From Amphritea sp. (GTDB taxonomy: Bacteria; Pseudomonadota; Gammaproteobacteria; Pseudomonadales; Nitrincolaceae): a stretch of DNA of 8,205 nucleotides. Shown here in pieces: positions 1,729 through 8,205 of this stretch. The position numbers were made by a program, and so were the translations under genes. The stretch lies in assembly GCA_024679635.1 (NCBI GenBank), contig JAIBDA010000053.1:1-8205 (forward strand), read 5' to 3'. Under the pieces are notes generated by a model. It did no database searches and was not told the origin of the DNA. It saw only the letters and a program-made list of their open reading frames with translations. Position 1 is the stretch's first letter; every line of letters starts with the position of its first letter.

Positions 1729-1801
1729 TCTAGCTAGTGGCGCAGCCACATCTACCCACTAGCAAGTCACGAAGTGACATTCTAGCGAGTCGCAAAGCGA
1801 C
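1729..1801 (-). repeat. Structured hairpin array A, downstream of tctA
   Basis: In tctA sense there are three perfect 5-bp hairpins with 3-nt loops: GTCGC-TTT-GCGAC (1801-1789), GTCAC-TTC-GTGAC (1778-1766) and GTGGC-TGC-GCCAC (1749-1737). They are joined by linkers TCGCTAGAAT and TTGCTAGTGGGTAGAT and followed by TAGCTAGA. The array starts 7 nt after the tctA stop and lies between it and the terminator. The linkers recur almost unchanged in arrays B and C, whereas the stems vary. Confidence 0.85.
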
Positions 1802-1808
1802 GGCTTTG

Positions 1809-3350
1809 CTAACCTTCACCTTCCGTGACAGCAATTTCCGGGCCTTTGACAGCCCGACGGCCACGCAGGTACTCAAGAACGGGAGGCATACAAAGAACGA
1901 CAATTGCAGTCAGGACGATGCCCAACGTCAGTGGTCGTTCCCACAAGAAGGCTAAGCTACCATCAGAAATCACCAGAGCCCGGCTCAAATTAGTCTCCAT
2001 CAGGCCACCCAGAATGAAACCAAGCAACATCGGCGCCATAGGGAAACTAAGCAGTTTCAGGAATATCGCAATAACGGTAATAATCGCCATCATATGGATA
2101 TCGAAGCTATTAAAGCTGACCAGATACACCCCGGTAATTGAGAAGAACAGAATCAATGGTATCAGGATCGGACGCGGAATAATCAGCAGCTTAGAAATGT
2201 ACGGGATCAGCGGCAGGTTCAGGATCAATAGCACCAGATTACCGAAGTACATGGAGATAATGACCGACCAGAAAACATCCGGATTATCGATAAACAGACG
2301 CGGTCCCGGCTGAATACCATAGGCAATCAGAGCACCCAGCATAATCGCGGTCGTACCTGAACCAGGAATACCCAGCGTCAACAGTGGTACAAAAGAACCT
2401 GTAGATGCAGCATTATTAGCAGATTCAGGCGCCGCCAGACCACGTAGGGAACCCTTACCAAACTTCAGCTTCTCTTTCGCGGATGCGATATTACGCTCCA
2501 GACCGTAAGCCAGAAAAGATGCGATAGTAGCTCCGGCACCAGGCAACACGCCGACAATAAAGCCAAACACAGATGAACGGCCTATCGTAGGTGCAACTTC
2601 CATAATCTCCTCTTTGCTTAGCTTCATGCTGCCAAGCTTGCTCATATCAACCTGTTCTTCTTCCTCTTTGTGCTGACCATTGAGAACGGTCATCACGACT
2701 TCAGTCAGAGCAAAAGTAGCCATCGCCAGCAACAGAAAGCTAACGCCATCAATCAGGTCGATATTGCCAAAGGTAAAGCGGGTAGCACCGGAAGTGGTAT
2801 CGGTGCCGACAGTCGCTATCATCAGACCGAAGACGGTCATCATAAGCGCCTTAATGACCTGCCCCTTACCCGAAAATGCAGCAACCGCAGTCAGGCCCAG
2901 GACCATCAGGGCAAAGTAATCGGTGGACTGGAAACTCAGCGAAACCGTCGCCAGAGCCGGTGCCGCAAACAGCAACGCAATAGCCGCGATAGTACCGCCA
3001 GTAAAGGATGAGTATGCAGCCAGTGCCAGCGCCTTACCCGCCTGATTCTTCTGTGCCAGAGGATAACCGTCAAACGCGGTTACTACAGTACTGGCGCAGC
3101 CCGGCGCATTGATCAGGATAGATGACGTAGAGCCACCAAATACCGCGCCATAATAGACACCAGCCATCAGGATAATGCCGGACGAAGGATCGAGGCCATA
3201 GGTGATCGGGATCATCAGCGCCACAGCAGAGATAGGCCCCAGACCCGGCAGCATGCCAATAAATGTACCGGCGAAGCAGCCAACCACAACCATCATCAGA
3301 TTAAAGGGCATCACCGCAGTTGATAGCCCGGTAAAAATTCCGTCTAACAT
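1809..3350 (-). CDS. tctA: Tripartite tricarboxylate transporter, large membrane subunit TctA
   Basis: TctA is the large permease of the TTT family; it carries citrate or a similar carboxylate across the inner membrane, driven by an ion gradient, with TctB and the binding protein TctC. The 513-residue length fits the family. The two diagnostic glycine/proline repeats are clear: GMLPGLGP at residues 32-39 and VGVLPGAGAT at 266-275, reflecting the internal duplication. About a dozen hydrophobic segments surround a charged loop near residues 225-255 (HKEEEEQVDMSK). I choose ATG 3350 because GGAGG lies 8 nt upstream and MLDGIFTGLSTA is the family's usual beginning. A TTG five codons earlier (3365) keeps the frame open but overlaps that ribosome binding site. 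The tctB stop is only 4 nt before the ATG and the binding site lies within the end of tctB, so translation is probably coupled. The stop codon is followed by hairpin array A. Confidence 0.96.
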   Translation of the reverse strand: MLDGIFTGLSTAVMPFNLMMVVVGCFAGTFIGMLPGLGPISAVALMIPITYGLDPSSGIILMAGVYYGAVFGGSTSSILINAPGCASTVVTAFDGYPLAQKNQAGKALALAAYSSFTGGTIAAIALLFAAPALATVSLSFQSTDYFALMVLGLTAVAAFSGKGQVIKALMMTVFGLMIATVGTDTTSGATRFTFGNIDLIDGVSFLLLAMATFALTEVVMTVLNGQHKEEEEQVDMSKLGSMKLSKEEIMEVAPTIGRSSVFGFIVGVLPGAGATIASFLAYGLERNIASAKEKLKFGKGSLRGLAAPESANNAASTGSFVPLLTLGIPGSGTTAIMLGALIAYGIQPGPRLFIDNPDVFWSVIISMYFGNLVLLILNLPLIPYISKLLIIPRPILIPLILFFSITGVYLVSFNSFDIHMMAIITVIAIFLKLLSFPMAPMLLGFILGGLMETNLSRALVISDGSLAFLWERPLTLGIVLTAIVVLCMPPVLEYLRGRRAVKGPEIAVTEGEG

Positions 3351-3354
3351 CAGC

Positions 3355-3828
3355 TTATCCTCCAAATACTTGAATAAATAATTTTCCCGGTGCCAGATAG
3401 ATATCCAGCAACTGAGTCAGGACAAACCAGATGCCTGCAGCAAAAGGTACCGAAGCAAGCAGCAGCATTTTTAGTCGACGCTCACCGAGCAACCAGTAAC
3501 CTGATATCAGGAAAAACACTGTGGCCAGCATAAATCCAACCCAGTCCAGCGCCAGGGCGAACAGCACGACCAGTAGCAATAACTTCGCTACCAGCGGGAA
3601 GTCATACCCCTTGAGGCTGAGTTTGTGCTCAACACCCTTATCAGCGGTAAACAACAGACCAATAGATAAAATTCCACCGAGAGTCGCCAGCACGTAAGGC
3701 AATGTTTGTGCATGGAATGGTTCAAATTCATCGCCTGGCAACAACGCGATATCACCCGCGTAGTAACCGTAAACAACGGACAGGCAGAGAAACACCAATC
3801 CACCAATATGGTCTTTAGTAATAATCAT
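3355..3828 (-). CDS. tctB: Tripartite tricarboxylate transporter, small membrane subunit TctB
   Basis: TctB is the small, poorly conserved membrane partner of TctA. The 157-residue length and the pattern of about four membrane segments (roughly residues 8-26, 46-61, 78-112 as a long hydrophobic pair, and 121-140) match the family. Sequence identity within TctB is low, so the call rests mainly on position between tctC and tctA and on the hydrophobic pattern. The ATG at 3828 has a GGGAG ribosome binding site 6 nt upstream. That site lies inside a small hairpin with the bases just before the start codon (see 3829-3859). The gene is 299 bp downstream of tctC, an unusually long gap inside an operon, but only 4 nt upstream of tctA. 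Confidence 0.92.
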   Translation of the reverse strand: MIITKDHIGGLVFLCLSVVYGYYAGDIALLPGDEFEPFHAQTLPYVLATLGGILSIGLLFTADKGVEHKLSLKGYDFPLVAKLLLLVVLFALALDWVGFMLATVFFLISGYWLLGERRLKMLLLASVPFAAGIWFVLTQLLDIYLAPGKLFIQVFGG

Positions 3829-3859
3829 GGGACGCTCCCGGACGGTGGAATAATCCGTC
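3829..3859 (-). promoter_or_regulatory. Hairpins over the tctB ribosome binding site
   Basis: In the tctB mRNA GGGA-GCG-UCCC (3839-3829) folds so that the Shine-Dalgarno GGGAG is paired up to the base before the start codon. Just upstream GACGG and CCGUC (3859-3841) can form a second stem with a 9-nt loop. Together they could lower or gate translation of tctB and, by coupling, tctA. The stem is only 4 bp, so the effect is an inference. Confidence 0.4.
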
Positions 3860-4127
3860 GTTACGATAAAAAAATCTCCAGGACCTGCCCTGCAGAAAAT
3901 ACAGGCCGAGGCCTCAGAACTGACACAGTGACTAAATAATCAGCCCCGGAGAAAAGCAGTAATAAAACTTAGAATAGGAAAAACTATGAACAGACCCTCT
4001 GCGCTTCAGCATGCCTTTTCGGGTGCCGGCTTACAGAAAACGCTTTGGGCCTGTTCGCAGAACTCCTGGTAGTTAAAAGTCAGGTAGTTAAAAGTCAGGT
4101 AGTTAAAAGTTATATCTGTAAAAAGAC
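3860..4127 (-). other. Untranslated tctC-tctB spacer
   Basis: With the hairpins at 3829-3859 this makes up the 299-bp gap between tctC and tctB. I see no conserved gene on either strand. It holds the three-copy 15-bp tandem repeat (4066-4110) and minor dyads such as GGCC-GA-GGCC near 3903-3912. There is no strong intrinsic terminator. Such gaps in transporter operons often let the binding-protein gene be expressed more than the membrane genes through RNA processing or partial termination; applying this here is inference. Confidence 0.6.
4066..4110. repeat. 15-bp tandem repeat, three copies
   Basis: The unit CAGGTAGTTAAAAGT occurs at 4066-4080 (with CTG instead of CAG), 4081-4095 and 4096-4110. 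Copies two and three are identical and a partial fourth breaks off at TAT. It begins 17 nt after the tctC stop in operon sense, where it reads ACTTTTAACTACCTG. Near-identity points to recent slippage, so copy number may vary between strains. Confidence 0.95.
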
Positions 4128-5111
4128 TTACTTCAAAAAACCTAGCTCACGCATCAAATCACCAACCTCTTTCTCCTGCTGTTCCAGGAAGCTGATGAAC
4201 TGCGCATCAGGCTTGAAAATCTCAACCCAACCGTTACGCGCACGAACGGTTTCCCACTCGTCGGTCTGGTACATTTTCTCCAGTGCTTTGACGAATTCAG
4301 CCTTCTGACTGTCAGAGGTACCCGGAGCGGCAAAGAAACCACGCCAGTTAACAAATGTTGCCTCGTAACCCAGCTCTTTCAGAGTAGGCACATCTGGCGC
4401 TGCAGCATTACGCTCATCACCGGTCATCACCAAAATCCGCACTTCACCCGCTTCAGCCAGGGTCAACGCTTCACTGAAACCGGTTGAGAGCAACTGTGTC
4501 TCACCAGATAGCAAGCCTGCCATCGCTTTACCGCCTGCATCATAGGCCACATAACGAACCTGACGGGCATCGCCACCGGTGGCTTTAAATGCCATCGCTG
4601 CGACTAAATGATCCATACTGCCACGGGCAGAACCACCAGCGATCTTGATTGAACGTGGATCAGCTTTGTAATCAGCAACAACCTGTTCAAAGCTACTGTA
4701 CTTCGAATCTTTCTTTACGACGAAAGCGCCAAAATCACCAATAGTTGCAGCAACGGGCGTCAGGTCGCGGAAAGATTGTGGGAAGACTTTAGACAGAGAA
4801 CGGATAACGATCGGCGTGGAGTTAACCATCAGGGTGTCGGTTTTCTGACCTGCCGTTTCGATCAGGTGGGCGATCGCTTTACCGCCACCACCACCGGACA
4901 TATTTTCATAAGAGATACTGTCAACCAGACCCGCCTTGGACAGCGCCTCACCGGTACCCCGTGCGGTAGAATCCCAACCACCTCCGGCACCACCAGGGAT
5001 CAGGAAGTGAACCGATTCAAGGGCTGCCACATGGAAAGATGCACCCGCAGTCAGACAGGTTGTCAGTGCCGCAGCAATCAAAGATTTTTTATTTACAGAT
5101 TTACAGAACAT
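4128..5111 (-). CDS. tctC: Periplasmic tricarboxylate-binding protein TctC (Bug family)
   Basis: TctC captures the substrate in the periplasm and delivers it to TctA/TctB. The 327-residue product has an N-terminal signal peptide ending near residue 30 (SFHVAA, then LESVHFLIPG) and a length usual for the family. The hallmark glycine-rich loop that holds the ligand carboxylate is seen as IPGGAGGGWDSTARG from residue 38, followed by YENMSGGGGGKAIAHL. Other Bug-type segments are SARGSMDHLVAA and FVNWRGFFAAPG. A cysteine at position 19 (LTTC) is a poor lipobox, so a soluble periplasmic protein is more likely than a lipoprotein. The start ATG has GAGG 9 nt upstream. As first gene of the operon it follows the divergent promoter region shared with the kinase. 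Citrate or another tricarboxylate is the likely ligand, but Bug proteins bind many carboxylates and sequence alone does not settle it. Confidence 0.95.
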   Translation of the reverse strand: MFCKSVNKKSLIAAALTTCLTAGASFHVAALESVHFLIPGGAGGGWDSTARGTGEALSKAGLVDSISYENMSGGGGGKAIAHLIETAGQKTDTLMVNSTPIVIRSLSKVFPQSFRDLTPVAATIGDFGAFVVKKDSKYSSFEQVVADYKADPRSIKIAGGSARGSMDHLVAAMAFKATGGDARQVRYVAYDAGGKAMAGLLSGETQLLSTGFSEALTLAEAGEVRILVMTGDERNAAAPDVPTLKELGYEATFVNWRGFFAAPGTSDSQKAEFVKALEKMYQTDEWETVRARNGWVEIFKPDAQFISFLEQQEKEVGDLMRELGFLK

Positions 5112-5302
5112 CCGGTAATGCCTCGTTTTATTTTTGTGATGTCTGCAAGGTAGATGTTGAACGTTTCTAAATGAAGCTTATGAATTTAAAGGCTTTTTAA
5201 AACATAAAATTTATTTTGTTCATAATGTTTACGGGCCTTATTCCGTTCTATTGCTTACTATCTATACAGTTGGCTTAAAACATATCGGAGCAGAAACAAA
5301 CG
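5112..5302. promoter_or_regulatory. Divergent tctC / sensor-kinase promoter region
   Basis: This 191-bp AT-rich spacer must hold promoters for both operons. A perfect 7-bp inverted repeat, TTATGAA (5178-5184) and TTCATAA (5219-5225), flanks an AT-rich core with the partial dyad AAACAT (5200-5205) and ATGTTT (5225-5230). On the minus strand TTCATAAGCTTCA (5184-5172) contains two TTCA half-sites 9 bp apart. CitB/DcuR-type regulators bind AT-rich sites in such regions, so these are candidates for the neighbouring response regulator. TATACA (5264-5269) could be a -10 element for the kinase, with a poor -35. No promoter is certain. Confidence 0.6.
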
Positions 5303-6940
5303 ATGAAACAACACCAGATAAAACCGGGCCGGTTAAAGCTTAAGAGCAGAATGATTCTGATCCTGGGAGTAATGGCACTGGTACAAACGGGTTTTATCGG
5401 TCTTTTCGCCCTGCACTATCTCGAGCGTTCACTGGATGAACAGATCGGGCAACGAGCCCTGGATGTAGCCAAAACCATTGCTGCAATGCCACAGATTGTT
5501 GAAGCGGTGAAGCGCCGTGACATTGAGTACCTGCAACCGGTCAGCCTGTCACTGGCGATTACAACCCGCGCCCGGTTTGTCGTTATCGGCGATAAAAAGG
5601 GTATCCGGCTGGCCCACCCTAAACCTGAGAAACTGGGCCACTCAATGGCCGATGACGACGGTGATACCGGCTATCAGGCATTGATACAGGGTCAGGGCTA
5701 TATTGCAAAAGCGGTCGGTTCACTGGGTTGGTCAATGCGCGGTAAAGCGCCGGTTGTCATGCCTGATGGTACCATTGTCGGGCTGGTCTCAGTAGGCTAC
5801 GGGCTGGACCGCGTCAGCGAAATTATCAACCGCTACCGGGTCACCCTGCTATTTGTCATTCTCTGTTCCTTTATGCTCAGCGCTGTTATCGCAGTCTGGT
5901 TTGCCAACCACTTTAAGAGAGCAATATTCGGTCTGGAACCGGAGCAGATAGCCCGACTGTTTGATGAACAGCGCGCTACGCTTGAGTCAGTACGCGAAGG
6001 TATTATCGCAATCAACAGCGATAGCGAAATAACAACCGTTAATCAAACCGCTATTGAAACTCTGGGGCTACCTAAAGAGAGCAATCTGATCGGTCGCAAA
6101 GTAGATGAGGTACTGCCAGACAGCTCAATGCTGGAAGTACTTAAAGATGGTAAACCCCAGTATGATCGCGAAGTATGGCGGGGTGATTTCTGTATTATTG
6201 CTAACCGCCTGCCGCTGAAGCAAGGCGATAGAATTACCGGCGCAGTATCCAGTTTTCGCCGCAAAGATGAGCTTGATATGGTGAGCCAGAAGCTTACCCG
6301 CATTCAGCAATATGCCGACACCCTGCGTAGCCAGTCCCATGAATACTCCAATAAGCTGCATACCATTTCCGGCCTGATTCAGATCGGCGCCACCGAAGAA
6401 GCACTGAACCTGATCGGTCAGGAATCCGCCAGCCATCAGGAGCTGATTCATCTGCTGATGCGTGCCGTGCCCGATCCGATTCTGGCCGGGTGTCTGTTAG
6501 GTAAATTCAACCGGGCCCGGGAGCTGGGCCTTAAGCTGGTAATTGACCCGGAAAGCGAGATGAAGCAACTTCCGGATCATCTCCCCCGGGAACAGCTGGT
6601 CACCATTCTCGGTAACCTGATCGATAATGCACTTGAAGCGACACTACGACAACACGGCAGTGAGGGTGAAGTGCAGCTATCGATGACCGATTTGGGTAAG
6701 GATCTGATCTTTGAAATAGAAGACCAGGGCGAGGGGCTTTCAGAGCAACAACAACTGCACATTTTTGAAAAAGGATATAGTAGCAAAAACAGCGAAGGAC
6801 ACGGTTACGGCCTGCATCTGGTACAAAACCTGCTTCACAAAATCAATGGCAGTATCACCATCGAAAACACCCTTGCTGGCGGCAGCCGATTCACAGTCTA
6901 CATACCAAAACGAAACCCTAAAAATAAGAACAAAAACTAA
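5303..6940 (+). CDS. Sensor histidine kinase, CitA/DcuS family, likely tricarboxylate sensor
   Basis: This 545-residue inner-membrane kinase probably senses a carboxylate in the periplasm and phosphorylates the next gene's product. In order: membrane segment about 17-38; periplasmic PAS-like sensor about 40-175; membrane segment about 180-202; cytoplasmic PAS about 220-320; phosphoacceptor His346 in SQSHEYSNKLHTISGL, typical of CitA rather than classical kinases; then the ATPase domain with N-box NLIDNALEA (438-446), G1 DQGEG (474-478) and G2 GHGYG (499-503). The sensor has RLAH (Arg102, His105) and MRGK (Arg146, Lys148), which match from memory the RxxH and RxK residues contacting citrate in Klebsiella CitA. 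All motifs are intact. GGAG lies 12 nt before the ATG, slightly far. It is divergent from tctCBA and 14 nt upstream of its regulator. Usual tct operons use TctE/TctD, so this is a different sensor type. Ligand choice is inferred. Confidence 0.94.
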   Translation: MKQHQIKPGRLKLKSRMILILGVMALVQTGFIGLFALHYLERSLDEQIGQRALDVAKTIAAMPQIVEAVKRRDIEYLQPVSLSLAITTRARFVVIGDKKGIRLAHPKPEKLGHSMADDDGDTGYQALIQGQGYIAKAVGSLGWSMRGKAPVVMPDGTIVGLVSVGYGLDRVSEIINRYRVTLLFVILCSFMLSAVIAVWFANHFKRAIFGLEPEQIARLFDEQRATLESVREGIIAINSDSEITTVNQTAIETLGLPKESNLIGRKVDEVLPDSSMLEVLKDGKPQYDREVWRGDFCIIANRLPLKQGDRITGAVSSFRRKDELDMVSQKLTRIQQYADTLRSQSHEYSNKLHTISGLIQIGATEEALNLIGQESASHQELIHLLMRAVPDPILAGCLLGKFNRARELGLKLVIDPESEMKQLPDHLPREQLVTILGNLIDNALEATLRQHGSEGEVQLSMTDLGKDLIFEIEDQGEGLSEQQQLHIFEKGYSSKNSEGHGYGLHLVQNLLHKINGSITIENTLAGGSRFTVYIPKRNPKNKNKN

Positions 6941-6954
6941 AGAGTTATAAAAGC

Positions 6955-7641
6955 ATGATTAAAGTTGTAATTGCCGAAGATGACCCTCAGATCGCTGAAA
7001 TACAGCGCCGCTTTCTGGAACGAATCGAAGGATTTGAATTGGTAGGTATTGCCCATGGGCTGGAAGAAGCGGAGGACCTGATTGAGATTCTTCAGCCTAA
7101 CCTGATATTACTAGACATCATGTTTCCTACCGGTACAGGGCTGGAGCTATTACGTAAAATTCGCGCCGGTAACAGCAGAGTCGATGTCATCATGATCACT
7201 GCCGCTAAAGAGGTAGAAACCCTACGCGAAGCCCTACACGGAGGGGTTTTCGATTATATTTTAAAACCGTTGGTATTCGAGCGATTACAAGAAACACTGA
7301 CCAACTATCAACAACACCTGATCAAGTTAGAAGCCTTACAATCCCTGGCGCAAAGTGATGTGGATAAGGTTCTGCCCCGCAGTGGCGCAACCACGGATAC
7401 AACTCCCGAACCTGAAGCCCGTTTACCCAAAGGGATTGACGCCCTTACACTGGAAAAAATCCGCAAGGTATTCAATGAACAGAAATTAAGCCTGAACGCA
7501 GAAGAAGCCGGTGAAATCATAGGCGCCAGCCGTACCACCGCCCGTCGCTATCTGGAATTCATGGTTAGTCAGAATGAATTAAGTGCCGAAGTCAGCTACG
7601 GCACTGTAGGTCGGCCTGAACGGCGTTATCAGCGCAGCTGA
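6955..7641 (+). CDS. Response regulator, CitB/DcuR/DpiA family
   Basis: This 228-residue transcription regulator is the partner of the kinase just upstream. The receiver domain covers about residues 1-120 with the acidic pair Glu8/Asp9/Asp10, phosphorylation site Asp54 (LILLDIMFP), Thr82 and Lys104 (LKPL). A linker (about 130-160, rich in Pro, Thr and Glu) leads to a C-terminal helix-turn-helix near 176-205 (AEEAGEIIGASRTTARRYLE), the arrangement of CitB and DcuR, followed by YGTVGRPERRYQ, a family ending. AGAG lies 10 nt before the ATG and the 14-nt gap to the kinase shows one operon. By context it should activate the divergent tctCBA operon when carboxylate is present and may also control the porin. 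All phosphotransfer residues are present. No intrinsic terminator follows; hairpin array B begins 12 nt after the stop. Confidence 0.94.
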   Translation: MIKVVIAEDDPQIAEIQRRFLERIEGFELVGIAHGLEEAEDLIEILQPNLILLDIMFPTGTGLELLRKIRAGNSRVDVIMITAAKEVETLREALHGGVFDYILKPLVFERLQETLTNYQQHLIKLEALQSLAQSDVDKVLPRSGATTDTTPEPEARLPKGIDALTLEKIRKVFNEQKLSLNAEEAGEIIGASRTTARRYLEFMVSQNELSAEVSYGTVGRPERRYQRS

Positions 7642-7653
7642 TAAGAGCAGACC

Positions 7654-7734
7654 GCATCACTTCGTGATGCTCGCCAGAACCGCCGAACAAGTTCGGCTCG
7701 CTAGTGGCTGGACGTGACTGCGTCACTTGCTAGA
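7654..7734 (+). repeat. Structured hairpin array B, downstream of the response regulator
   Basis: In gene sense: stem GCATCAC-TTC-GTGATGC (7654-7670), linker TCGCCAGAACC, stem GCCGAAC-AA-GTTCGGC (7682-7697), linker TCGCTAGTGGCTGGAC (7698-7713), stem GTGAC-TGC-GTCAC (7714-7726), then TTGCTAGA. The order and linkers match arrays A and C. The middle stem has a quite different sequence from the GTCAC/GTGAC stem in A and C but is fully complementary. No U-tract follows any stem, so it is not a standard terminator. Confidence 0.85.
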
Positions 7735-7960
7735 TAAAATCCTTCTAAAGAATAAAAGGAAACAACTCCTGTCTCCCTGCTACGTAAGGTTGGTCTGGAC
7801 GGAAACATTCCTCATCCATAGAACCATCATCGGAGTTTAGTAACCGATACGAGCAAAGACTTCCTGAATAGGCGAAACGTGATGCTTAAGGGACAGCCCG
7901 GAACGTTGTCACAATGATAAGAATGCACTTAGTGACCGCCCATATGCTGTTGCTTTTTCC
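7735..7960. other. Unassigned 226-bp segment between two hairpin arrays
   Basis: I find no intact gene, tRNA or known RNA family here. A minus-strand frame reads MEKATAYGRSLSAFLSL, stop, then QRSGLSLKHHVSPIQEVFARIGY, stop (about 7958-7839), which looks faintly protein-like and could be a decayed gene remnant. I cannot assign it to a family. The dyads TCCTT/AAGGA (near 7740-7760) and ATCGG/CCGAT (near 7829-7850) are short. With arrays B and C this forms the 381-bp stretch between the response regulator and folD. Confidence 0.4.
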
Positions 7961-8023
7961 ATCTAGCCACTAGCGAGTCACGTAGTGACGTTCTAGCAAC
8001 TCTCGCGAAGCGAGTTCGCTCGC
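7961..8023 (-). repeat. Structured hairpin array C, downstream of folD
   Basis: In folD sense: a GCGAG/CTCGC stem with a four-base CGAA loop (8023-8010) starting inside the stop codon, overlapping stem CTCGC-TTC-GCGAG (8014-8002), linker AGTTGCTAGAAC, stem GTCAC-TAC-GTGAC (7989-7977) and linker TCGCTAGTGGCTAGAT (7976-7961). The third hairpin found in A and B is absent, so the array looks one unit short. The first two stems share GCGAG and cannot form together, so they are alternative folds. Confidence 0.85.
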
Positions 8024-8205
8024 TACGCAAGCAGCTCTGCCGCTTCAAGGGTTTGACTGATAAGCGCATTGATCGTCATCGGTCCTACACCACCCGGGAC
8101 CGGCGTTAAGGCTGCGACCCTGTTTTCTAAACCTAGCTTTTCGATATCACCCAGGCCACCCTGGTGATAGCCCGCATCCACGACCACCGCACCATCTTTA
8201 ATCCA
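8023..8205 (-). CDS. folD: Methylenetetrahydrofolate dehydrogenase/cyclohydrolase FolD, C-terminal end
   Basis: FolD converts 5,10-methylene-tetrahydrofolate to 5,10-methenyl- and then 10-formyl-tetrahydrofolate in the cytosol using NADP. Only the last 60 codons are in the window, in frame to the edge, so the start and the catalytic lysine region are not seen. The visible part begins [12 protein letters not shown], the strand after the cofactor-binding fold, and contains the diagnostic [16 protein letters not shown] at residues 34-49, ending with the usual helix [11 protein letters not shown]. The loop YHQGGLGDI differs from the E. coli form DVGINR and may mark a FolD subfamily. The gene is convergent with the response regulator and has no apparent tie to carboxylate uptake. 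Its TAG stop lies at the edge of hairpin array C. The family call is sure; whether this is the only folD in the genome is unknown. Confidence 0.92.

Follow-up and report, generated by a model that had tools for sequence, protein, structure and literature searches.

We describe a multi-copy family of short DNA hairpins in the genus Amphritea, recognized through three arrays (A, B and C) in an 8,205-nucleotide stretch of Amphritea sp. contig JAIBDA010000053.1 (hereafter, the window). The family has about 26 kinds of stem, mostly perfect in their pairing, set between fixed linkers and closed by loops with fixed ends. Its arrays lie behind stop codons with a sense polarity, gain and lose modules at CTAG sequences and, at some sites, differ by the replacement of a whole hairpin. 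The arrays look like an undescribed relative of the repetitive extragenic palindromic (REP) repeats, and a literature search, with subscription papers outside its reach, found no account of these Amphritea repeats among the papers listed. Our interpretation, to which we give about an even chance, is that they form a genus-level modular hairpin family akin to REPs and bacterial interspersed mosaic elements (BIMEs), in which a folded strand is recognized and kept while the hairpins are reshuffled as modules.

REPs are widespread, and both the feature by which they are recognized and their mode of spread are only partly known. Here the stem varies naturally while loop ends and linkers stay fixed, across hundreds of copies and several species, so that structural recognition can be told apart from sequence recognition without mutagenesis. 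The family also provides a test bed for compensatory changes, which may come about through selection on base pairs or through whole-hairpin exchange.

Modular plan of the arrays

A module consists of YTAG and AC or AAC, followed by a TNC-looped stem, usually 5–7 bp long (G first, C last), and by T, TT or TC with GCTAG. Arrays mostly contain one to three modules, joined head to tail via CTAG linkers, and among the arrays listed the common end, judged by eye, is TTGCTAGAAAAAGC. The three arrays of the window each start 7–12 nt past a stop codon, in the sense of the gene that ends there (tctA, a response regulator gene and a folD-type gene for A, B and C, respectively).

Array A (minus strand) consists of hairpin 1, GTCGC-TTT-GCGAC (1789–1801), linker 1, TCGCTAGAAT (1779–1788), hairpin 2, GTCAC-TTC-GTGAC (1766–1778), linker 2, TTGCTAGTGGGTAGAT (1750–1765), hairpin 3, GTGGC-TGC-GCCAC (1737–1749), and the terminal linker TAGCTAGA (1729–1736), followed by AAAT. 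Linkers of the form GCTAGAAY, as in linker 1, recur in the four genomes searched. Array B (plus strand) begins 12 nt past the response regulator stop with GCATCAC-TTC-GTGATGC (7654–7670), and continues with TCGCCAGAACC (7671–7681), GCCGAAC-AA-GTTCGGC (7682–7697), TCGCTAGTGGCTGGAC (7698–7713), GTGAC-TGC-GTCAC (7714–7726) and the terminal linker TTGCTAGA (7727–7734). Array C (minus strand), 8 nt past the stop of the folD-type gene, has only two hairpins, CTCGC-TTC-GCGAG (8002–8014) and GTCAC-TAC-GTGAC (7977–7989), separated by AGTTGCTAGAAC (7990–8001); its linker 2, TCGCTAGTGGCTAGAT (7961–7976), leads into GGAAAAAG without a third hairpin.

An earlier note on the window, made from the sequence alone, had proposed one plan for all three arrays, ending in a third hairpin and TWGCTAGA. 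The arrays lie where it placed them and the linkers are kept, but because array C has two hairpins only, that ending is limited to A and B. Its other readings agree with ours: linker 2 is exactly 16 nt in each array, the third stem is GTGGC/GCCAC in A and GTGAC/GTCAC in B, and the middle stem is GTCAC/GTGAC in A and C and GCCGAAC/GTTCGGC in B. The window holds three perfect matches to the linker-2 pattern, all within arrays, and four with up to two mismatches against 1.5 expected, a number that 9 of 200 shuffles of the window reach. Folded as single-stranded DNA, array A beats 199 of 200 shuffles, and arrays B and C are mildly above chance (7 and 12 of 200 shuffles as good, respectively). Rfam 15 gave three matches in the window at E values up to 1, none of them within the arrays; a weak match to BSnc120 ends 2 nt before array A.

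The loop is the most regular part of the hairpin. In a free-loop set, retrieved with only the linkers and the outer G and C defined, 193 of 210 units have a TNC loop, the middle base of which is T in 97, G in 74, A in 17 and C in 5. On the opposite strand, such a module reads C-GNA-G. DNA hairpins with GNA loops, whatever the middle base, and at least two G–C pairs are described as extraordinarily stable mini-hairpins, with a sheared G–A pair in the case of GAA (PMC4686876; here and below, papers are cited for the portions consulted). Fixed loop ends around a free middle base are what selection on a folded strand would leave.

A second class of hairpin combines a 7-bp stem with a 2-base loop (GCYGAAC, AA or AC, GTTCRGC). 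It is the first hairpin, after GACC, at four of the loci that we collected (L034, L153, L154 and L197) and the middle hairpin of array B in the window (7682–7697), the stem and loop of which recur in an A. balenae copy (G001:C19:283096). At L191 (around position 2134, minus strand), the linker-2 core CTAGTGG is repeated about nine times in tandem with no hairpins, a sign of slippage between CTAG units.

Copy number and distribution

The earlier note had described a repeat family at three loci, and further copies were found in the genomes of relatives. A genus-wide pattern with linkers, TNC loop, outer G and C and closing C–G pair fixed, and three bases per arm free, matched 531 copies in 11 of 17 Amphritea genomes (126, 121, 79, 57, 56, 44, 18, 14, 14, 1 and 1), compared with 2 matches for the reversed control in the 17 genomes. 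The only genome matched in an order-wide sample of 390 (linker-2 pattern) was A. balenae, as it was in a class-wide sample of 369 (genus-wide pattern). A looser pattern matched 16 of 99 genomes of the family, of which four have real copies by eye; thirteen loci (L040–L051 and L055) were judged to be chance matches and were excluded from later counts. Viral contigs, searched with one pattern, gave no matches.

Stems change and remain complementary

The decisive test retrieved copies by their linkers only and re-dealt their arms, outside the window. Four whole genomes were searched with the inserts between linkers left as N, and the inserts returned were hairpins with many different stems: 109 of 134 have a perfect stem of at least 4 bp (all 52 rows of one search and 82 of 87 of another, five nested duplicates having been dropped). 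Fifty-one of the 83 distinct inserts form a perfect 5-bp stem, whereas re-dealing the right arms leaves 4.9 ± 2.0 (maximum 13 in 2,000 trials). A set of 293 copies, namely the matches listed among 370 counted in four genomes (100 of 121 in G077, 49 of 79 in G473, 100 of 126 in G100 and 44 of 44 in G474), gave the same picture, with 267 perfect stems, 21 with one mismatch and 5 with two; of its 32 distinct arm pairs, 14 are perfect, compared with 1.8 after arm swapping (maximum 8). In the free-loop set, stems are perfect in 176 of 213 odd-length inserts, 8 even-length inserts having been set aside.

Covariation was measured in 23 distinct units, hand-picked as one per noticed arm pair with mismatched pairs included. 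Both partners had changed in 29 cells, compared with 9.3 ± 3.2 after shuffling (none of 500 shuffles reached 29), and sliding the stem partners destroyed the signal. Complementarity thus far exceeds that of shuffled sequence, and the fixed linkers with changing but complementary stems that the earlier note saw in three arrays extend to the family. The repertoire of stems is finite. The 239 perfect-stem triloop modules contain 27 stem strings. One of them, CTAG, arises artefactually from runs of CTAGTGG; of the 26 real kinds, 22 occur at least twice. The four genomes carry 10, 11, 15 and 16 of the 17 stems in the 293-copy set.

Changes at homologous sites

Comparison between relatives suggests how the stems change. 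At the site of array A, A. balenae has one hairpin and the window three. By our reading of the alignment, the missing part is bounded by CTAG and the remaining hairpin corresponds in stem and loop to hairpin 1, hairpin 2 being absent (an automatic alignment had paired the remaining hairpin with hairpin 2 instead); hairpin 3 does not occur at this site in A. balenae. Arrays at L194 and L218 (G473 versus G077, which is A. atlantica) differ by exactly one 22-nt, CTAG-bounded module. At two sites with homologous flanks, a middle hairpin GGAAAC-TGC-GTTTCC stands opposite GTCAC-TGC-GTGAC, and only single bases differ in the linkers and the next hairpin (L190:2148 and L192:410, flanks 74% and 81%; L192:4781 and L058:2504, flanks 90% and 86%). 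These swaps were read among 46 non-identical alignments listed from 84 locus pairs with both flanks homologous, several of the listed flank alignments being tandem paralogues or misplaced. A further swap is possible at L202 and L036, where GTCGC/GCGAC and GTGGC/GCCAC face each other in a poorly aligned gap.

Because the whole hairpin is replaced between conserved linkers, both arms seem to travel together. These swaps, together with the exact gain or loss of single modules, support the idea in the earlier note of a modular element with fixed linkers and interchangeable stems. Its other idea, a copying process that rewrites stems as perfect palindromes, is not shown by these sites: movement of hairpins as units accounts for the cases compared, and a few unpaired stems that are hybrids of two arms (such as GTCGC-TTC-GCTCC) exist. 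In other aligned orthologous pairs, stems are mostly unchanged and linkers, middle loop bases and flanks have changed (nine pairs were aligned, of which L195 and L223 had no useful array); one-sided stem changes are the exceptions, at L192/L190 (an arm hybrid) and L185/L216. Tandem copies have either GC-TTC-GC or GCAAC-TGC-GTTGC at the same place. At L149 and L207 (G473 versus A. atlantica), about 129 nt that include a two-hairpin array are identical, and the flanking blocks stand at 83–89%.

Position and polarity

Only 2 of 191 distinct arrays lie inside open reading frames (ORFs) of at least 100 amino acids, in loci selected for holding copies and with ORFs called mechanically. The arrays occupy 80 convergent, 64 tandem and 16 divergent gaps (31 lie at locus edges), compared with 72 convergent, 249 tandem and 85 divergent gaps in a random 800-kb sample (convergent against tandem, P = 6e-12; divergent against the rest, P = 0.002). 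Most convergent arrays (69 of 80) are closer to the gene to which they are sense, and 47 of 64 tandem arrays follow the sense of the upstream gene, the other 17 being antisense. Sense arrays start within 100 nt of the stop codon in 101 of 127 cases; 17 of 127 end at most 100 nt from the following gene.

A simple, home-made detector placed a sense terminator within 200 nt after 26 of 117 stop-proximal arrays, before 8 and on neither side of 85. As the terminator lies beyond the array in those 26, some arrays are probably transcribed, and others perhaps are not. The arrays themselves were rejected as intrinsic terminators: by eye, they commonly run into A-rich sequence, with no direct T run.

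Proposed recognition of a folded strand and its alternatives

We propose that a folded single strand is what is kept, and that it is most likely DNA, in the form of the strand with the GNA loop. A protein would read the loop, the closing C–G pair and the CTAG flank; the stem would need only to pair, and stems could therefore vary freely. Both arms of a hairpin would be carried together by recombination, or by slippage during replication, through the CTAG linkers, and apparent compensatory changes would result. We infer recognition by structure, the strand and the enzyme from these patterns; for spreading, a single-strand (HUH-type) transposase acting in trans would be the likeliest candidate. 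Arrays at the 3′ ends of transcripts probably act as REPs are thought to, on transcript ends and topology, which would be a consequence, rather than a shown cause, of their upkeep.

A more specific proposal, which we consider doubtful, is that the family is a mobile or recombining repeat whose protein reads a single-stranded DNA mini-hairpin only via the GNA triloop, the closing pair and the CTAG flank, the stem being a free, exchangeable module. By the same tentative reading, the family would represent attC-like structural recognition at the size of a REP, with modules inserted, lost and swapped singly behind genes.

Several observations weigh against our main interpretation. A DNA energy model gives equal energies to both strands of the 13-mers, so the advantage of GNA rests on the literature. 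In the covariation set, base pairs changed on both sides (3 of 5) are not above shuffles, 291 of 500 of which reach that count, because the outer and closing pairs never vary. The finite stem pool could derive from a few amplified masters, and the strong sense polarity of arrays behind genes is as suggestive of transcripts as it is of DNA. No excess on one replication strand, as a lagging-strand mobile element might show, was seen in G016 (16 of 34 in leading-strand orientation) or, among the matches listed, in G473 (21 of 41), both with contigs that start near the skew switch. The swap sites are likely, not certain, to be orthologous, since they sit in repeat-rich regions, and neither a target-site duplication nor a clean empty site was found among the sites compared. 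Finally, a loose scan places CTAG units at 2 of 35 loci with genes for Y1 transposases, where random stretches predict 2.6 (in 107 kb), and the A. balenae genome, with its 14 copies, gave no Y1 match.

The strongest rival, which we regard as possible though less likely than not, holds that the hairpins are selected as RNA in 3′ untranslated regions and that stems drift by compensatory mutation; the roles proposed, possible to the same degree, are protection of transcript ends, slowing of ribosomes at stop codons and protein binding via CUAG linkers. Sense polarity and nearness to stop codons fit this view, as do the 26 arrays that precede a sense terminator, and REPs within 15 nt of a stop codon are reported to stall ribosomes (PMC12306157). 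However, one-sided mismatches show no excess of G–U over A–C: 7 G.T or T.G and 7 A.C or C.A in the 293-copy set, and 8 and 15, respectively, as raw counts in the free-loop set, in which some A.C cells are large-loop hairpins parsed as triloops. The counts are small and not decisive; as they stand, with the two kinds of mismatch equal, sense RNA leaves no mark. By contrast, GT pairing is reported to be frequent in REPs of the GTAG type (PMC3733652). Other features also fit RNA poorly: the 3′ boundary is A-rich and does not form a terminator, the loop is of a kind that favours folding of the antisense strand as DNA, and there are the antisense tandem arrays and 16 divergent arrays.

Template switching during replication could instead perfect hairpins without structural selection, with linkers persisting by descent and gene conversion. 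It can create and maintain perfect stems and produce multi-base compensatory changes (PMC8794818), and the unpaired arm hybrids and the alternative hairpins at one tandem place are in keeping with it. Yet it leaves the fixed loop ends with their C–G closure, the 26 stems (22 of them recurrent) and the polarity without explanation, and orthologous pairs mostly keep their stems while middle loop bases, linkers and flanks change. We consider such a copying artefact unlikely.

That the arrays are true REPs moved by a REP-associated tyrosine transposase (RAYT; TnpA_REP) of the genus, with CTAG replacing GTAG, is in our view quite improbable. Their layout does resemble that of REP_Mb of Marinomonas, with a 5-bp perfect palindrome two bases from the tetranucleotide (PMC8266576), and that of the GTAG-1/2 repeats, with an extra dinucleotide and a 3-bp tail (PMC3733652). 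Matches to PF01797 (Y1 transposase) occur in 12 of 17 Amphritea genomes, 11 of them over the cut-off, and NCBIfam identifies four Y1 proteins as RAYTs (L075, L081, L082 and L259), those of L067 and L073 falling below its cut-off. In addition, a GTAG-type REP motif lies within 200 nt of 87 of 323 CTAG units, against a background of 0.047 per 400 nt in a random sample that is not only intergenic. However, the RAYTs keep other company. The 148-amino-acid Y1 genes (L071, L072, L075, L081 and L255) sit amid clusters of GTAGGAG/GTGGGAG, with 5–22 motifs in about 3.3 kb, and a second RAYT type of 175–176 amino acids (L082 and L259) is accompanied by GTAGGTTGGG-type repeats. Mutation of the tetranucleotide to CTAG reduced cleavage by TnpA_Sm (PMC8266576).

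CTAG units at Y1 loci are at the background level given above, which was derived from 19 units in the random 800 kb; 26 of the 35 Y1 loci are within the genus, and L081 and L260 contain runs of N. Narrow unit patterns match only L067, about 0.7 kb from the Y1 gene. The looser scan adds L068, where a divergent unit, CCAGAAC-GCGC-TCT-GCGC-TTGCTAG (2426–2458, minus strand), lies between a Y1 gene in G100 and the neighbouring ORF, in the sense of that ORF and 16 nt past its stop codon. The suggestion in the earlier note of a RAYT or Y1 transposase with the same hairpins at its ends therefore did not hold, and we reject a RAYT-driven REPtron; this lowers the claim that the arrays are RAYT-moved REPs, but not the claim that they work in a REP-like manner. 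Neutral amplification and shuffling of a few master modules by ordinary recombination, without recognition of structure, would account for a finite stem pool common to several genomes and for the slippage seen in tandem arrays and the CTAGTGG run, but perfect pairing in 83–91% of copies with only the middle loop base free is unexpected without constraint, and we consider this very unlikely.

Downstream of the Y1 genes at L259 and L260, an array end, CTTTTTCTAGCAA, adjoins a RAYT-type REP without a hairpin, and at L192:15744–16900 tandem repeats of about 209 bp combine a GTAG-type REP with hairpin modules of the CTAG family.

Comparison with known repeats and recombination sites

Several known systems resemble the family, of which REPs are the nearest, as the earlier note had supposed of REPs and BIMEs. 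Like the GTAG REPs (GTAG-1/2 and REP_Mb of Marinomonas), the Amphritea modules are short intergenic palindromes in many copies (14–126 copies in nine genomes), with a tetranucleotide ending in TAG, two or three extra bases and a short tail (PMC3733652, PMC8266576). Both occur close to the ends of genes (3′ side), in gaps between convergent or unidirectional neighbours, and in both stems differ, between sub-families in the case of GTAG REPs. The contrast drawn in the earlier note, that REPs normally conserve the stem sequence, is nevertheless too sharp: the sorting of GTAG families is itself partly by stem, and most of them are reported to be divisible into sub-families whose stems carry alternative, complementary residues (PMC3733652). 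The REPs of Escherichia coli are reported to need a conserved bulge (PMC8266576). Unlike GTAG REPs, which are mostly inverted dimers, Amphritea modules stand head to tail with shared CTAG linkers. They have CTAG or TTAG in place of a terminal GTAG or a slightly degenerate form of it, only the last three bases being shared, and they combine about 26 stems in one family with a TNC/GNA triloop, no G–U excess and no linked RAYT found.

Fungal mitochondrial double-hairpin elements, like the Amphritea modules, have hairpins with variable but complementary stems, but belong to other organisms and lack CTAG linkers. BIMEs form mosaic arrays between genes, as the Amphritea modules do, and the attC sites of integrons lie behind genes with a fixed polarity. 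Whereas BIMEs alternate in orientation (PMC2817692), Amphritea modules run one way with mostly perfect stems, and of 115 clusters flanked by two genes, only 4 contain both orientations. In attC, one folded strand is recognized by its structure, without sequence conservation (PMC2727003), as we propose here; unlike Amphritea modules, which are about 25 nt long with plain stems of 5–7 bp, attC sites contain extrahelical bases as well as a central spacer that is left unpaired. No cassette array was seen at the Amphritea arrays, although no search was aimed at an integrase or at attC core boxes. As for miniature inverted-repeat transposable elements, inverted ends are not apparent by eye in the arrays listed, and no clean empty site from which a target-site duplication could be read was found.

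Other features of the window

Besides the arrays, the window contains genes for a porin, for a tctCBA-type transporter (TctA, TctB and TctC) and for a sensor kinase and a response regulator, and it ends within a folD-type gene. Over its best segment, the kinase shares 94% identity with its A. balenae counterpart, which places the window in that genus or very close to it. The genes upstream of the arrays are tctA for array A (1809–3365, minus strand; Pfam TctA, 507.8 bits), the response regulator gene for array B (6955–7641, plus strand; Pfam Response_reg and HTH_64) and the 3′ end of the folD-type gene for array C (8023–8205, minus strand; Pfam THF_DHG_CYH_C, 54.4 bits; stop codon at 8023–8025). 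Behind the porin gene (401–533), the window has only a degenerate trace where A. balenae has a hairpin array. Antisense inside tctA (2179–2306, plus strand) lies a sub-threshold Rfam match to the Ruegeria cis8 small RNA (52.4 bits; cut-off, 58), which may reflect homologous coding sequence only. Just behind tctC (4068–4123), a 15-bp tandem repeat, GGTAGTTAAAAGTCA, occurs in three copies, the last of them diverged.

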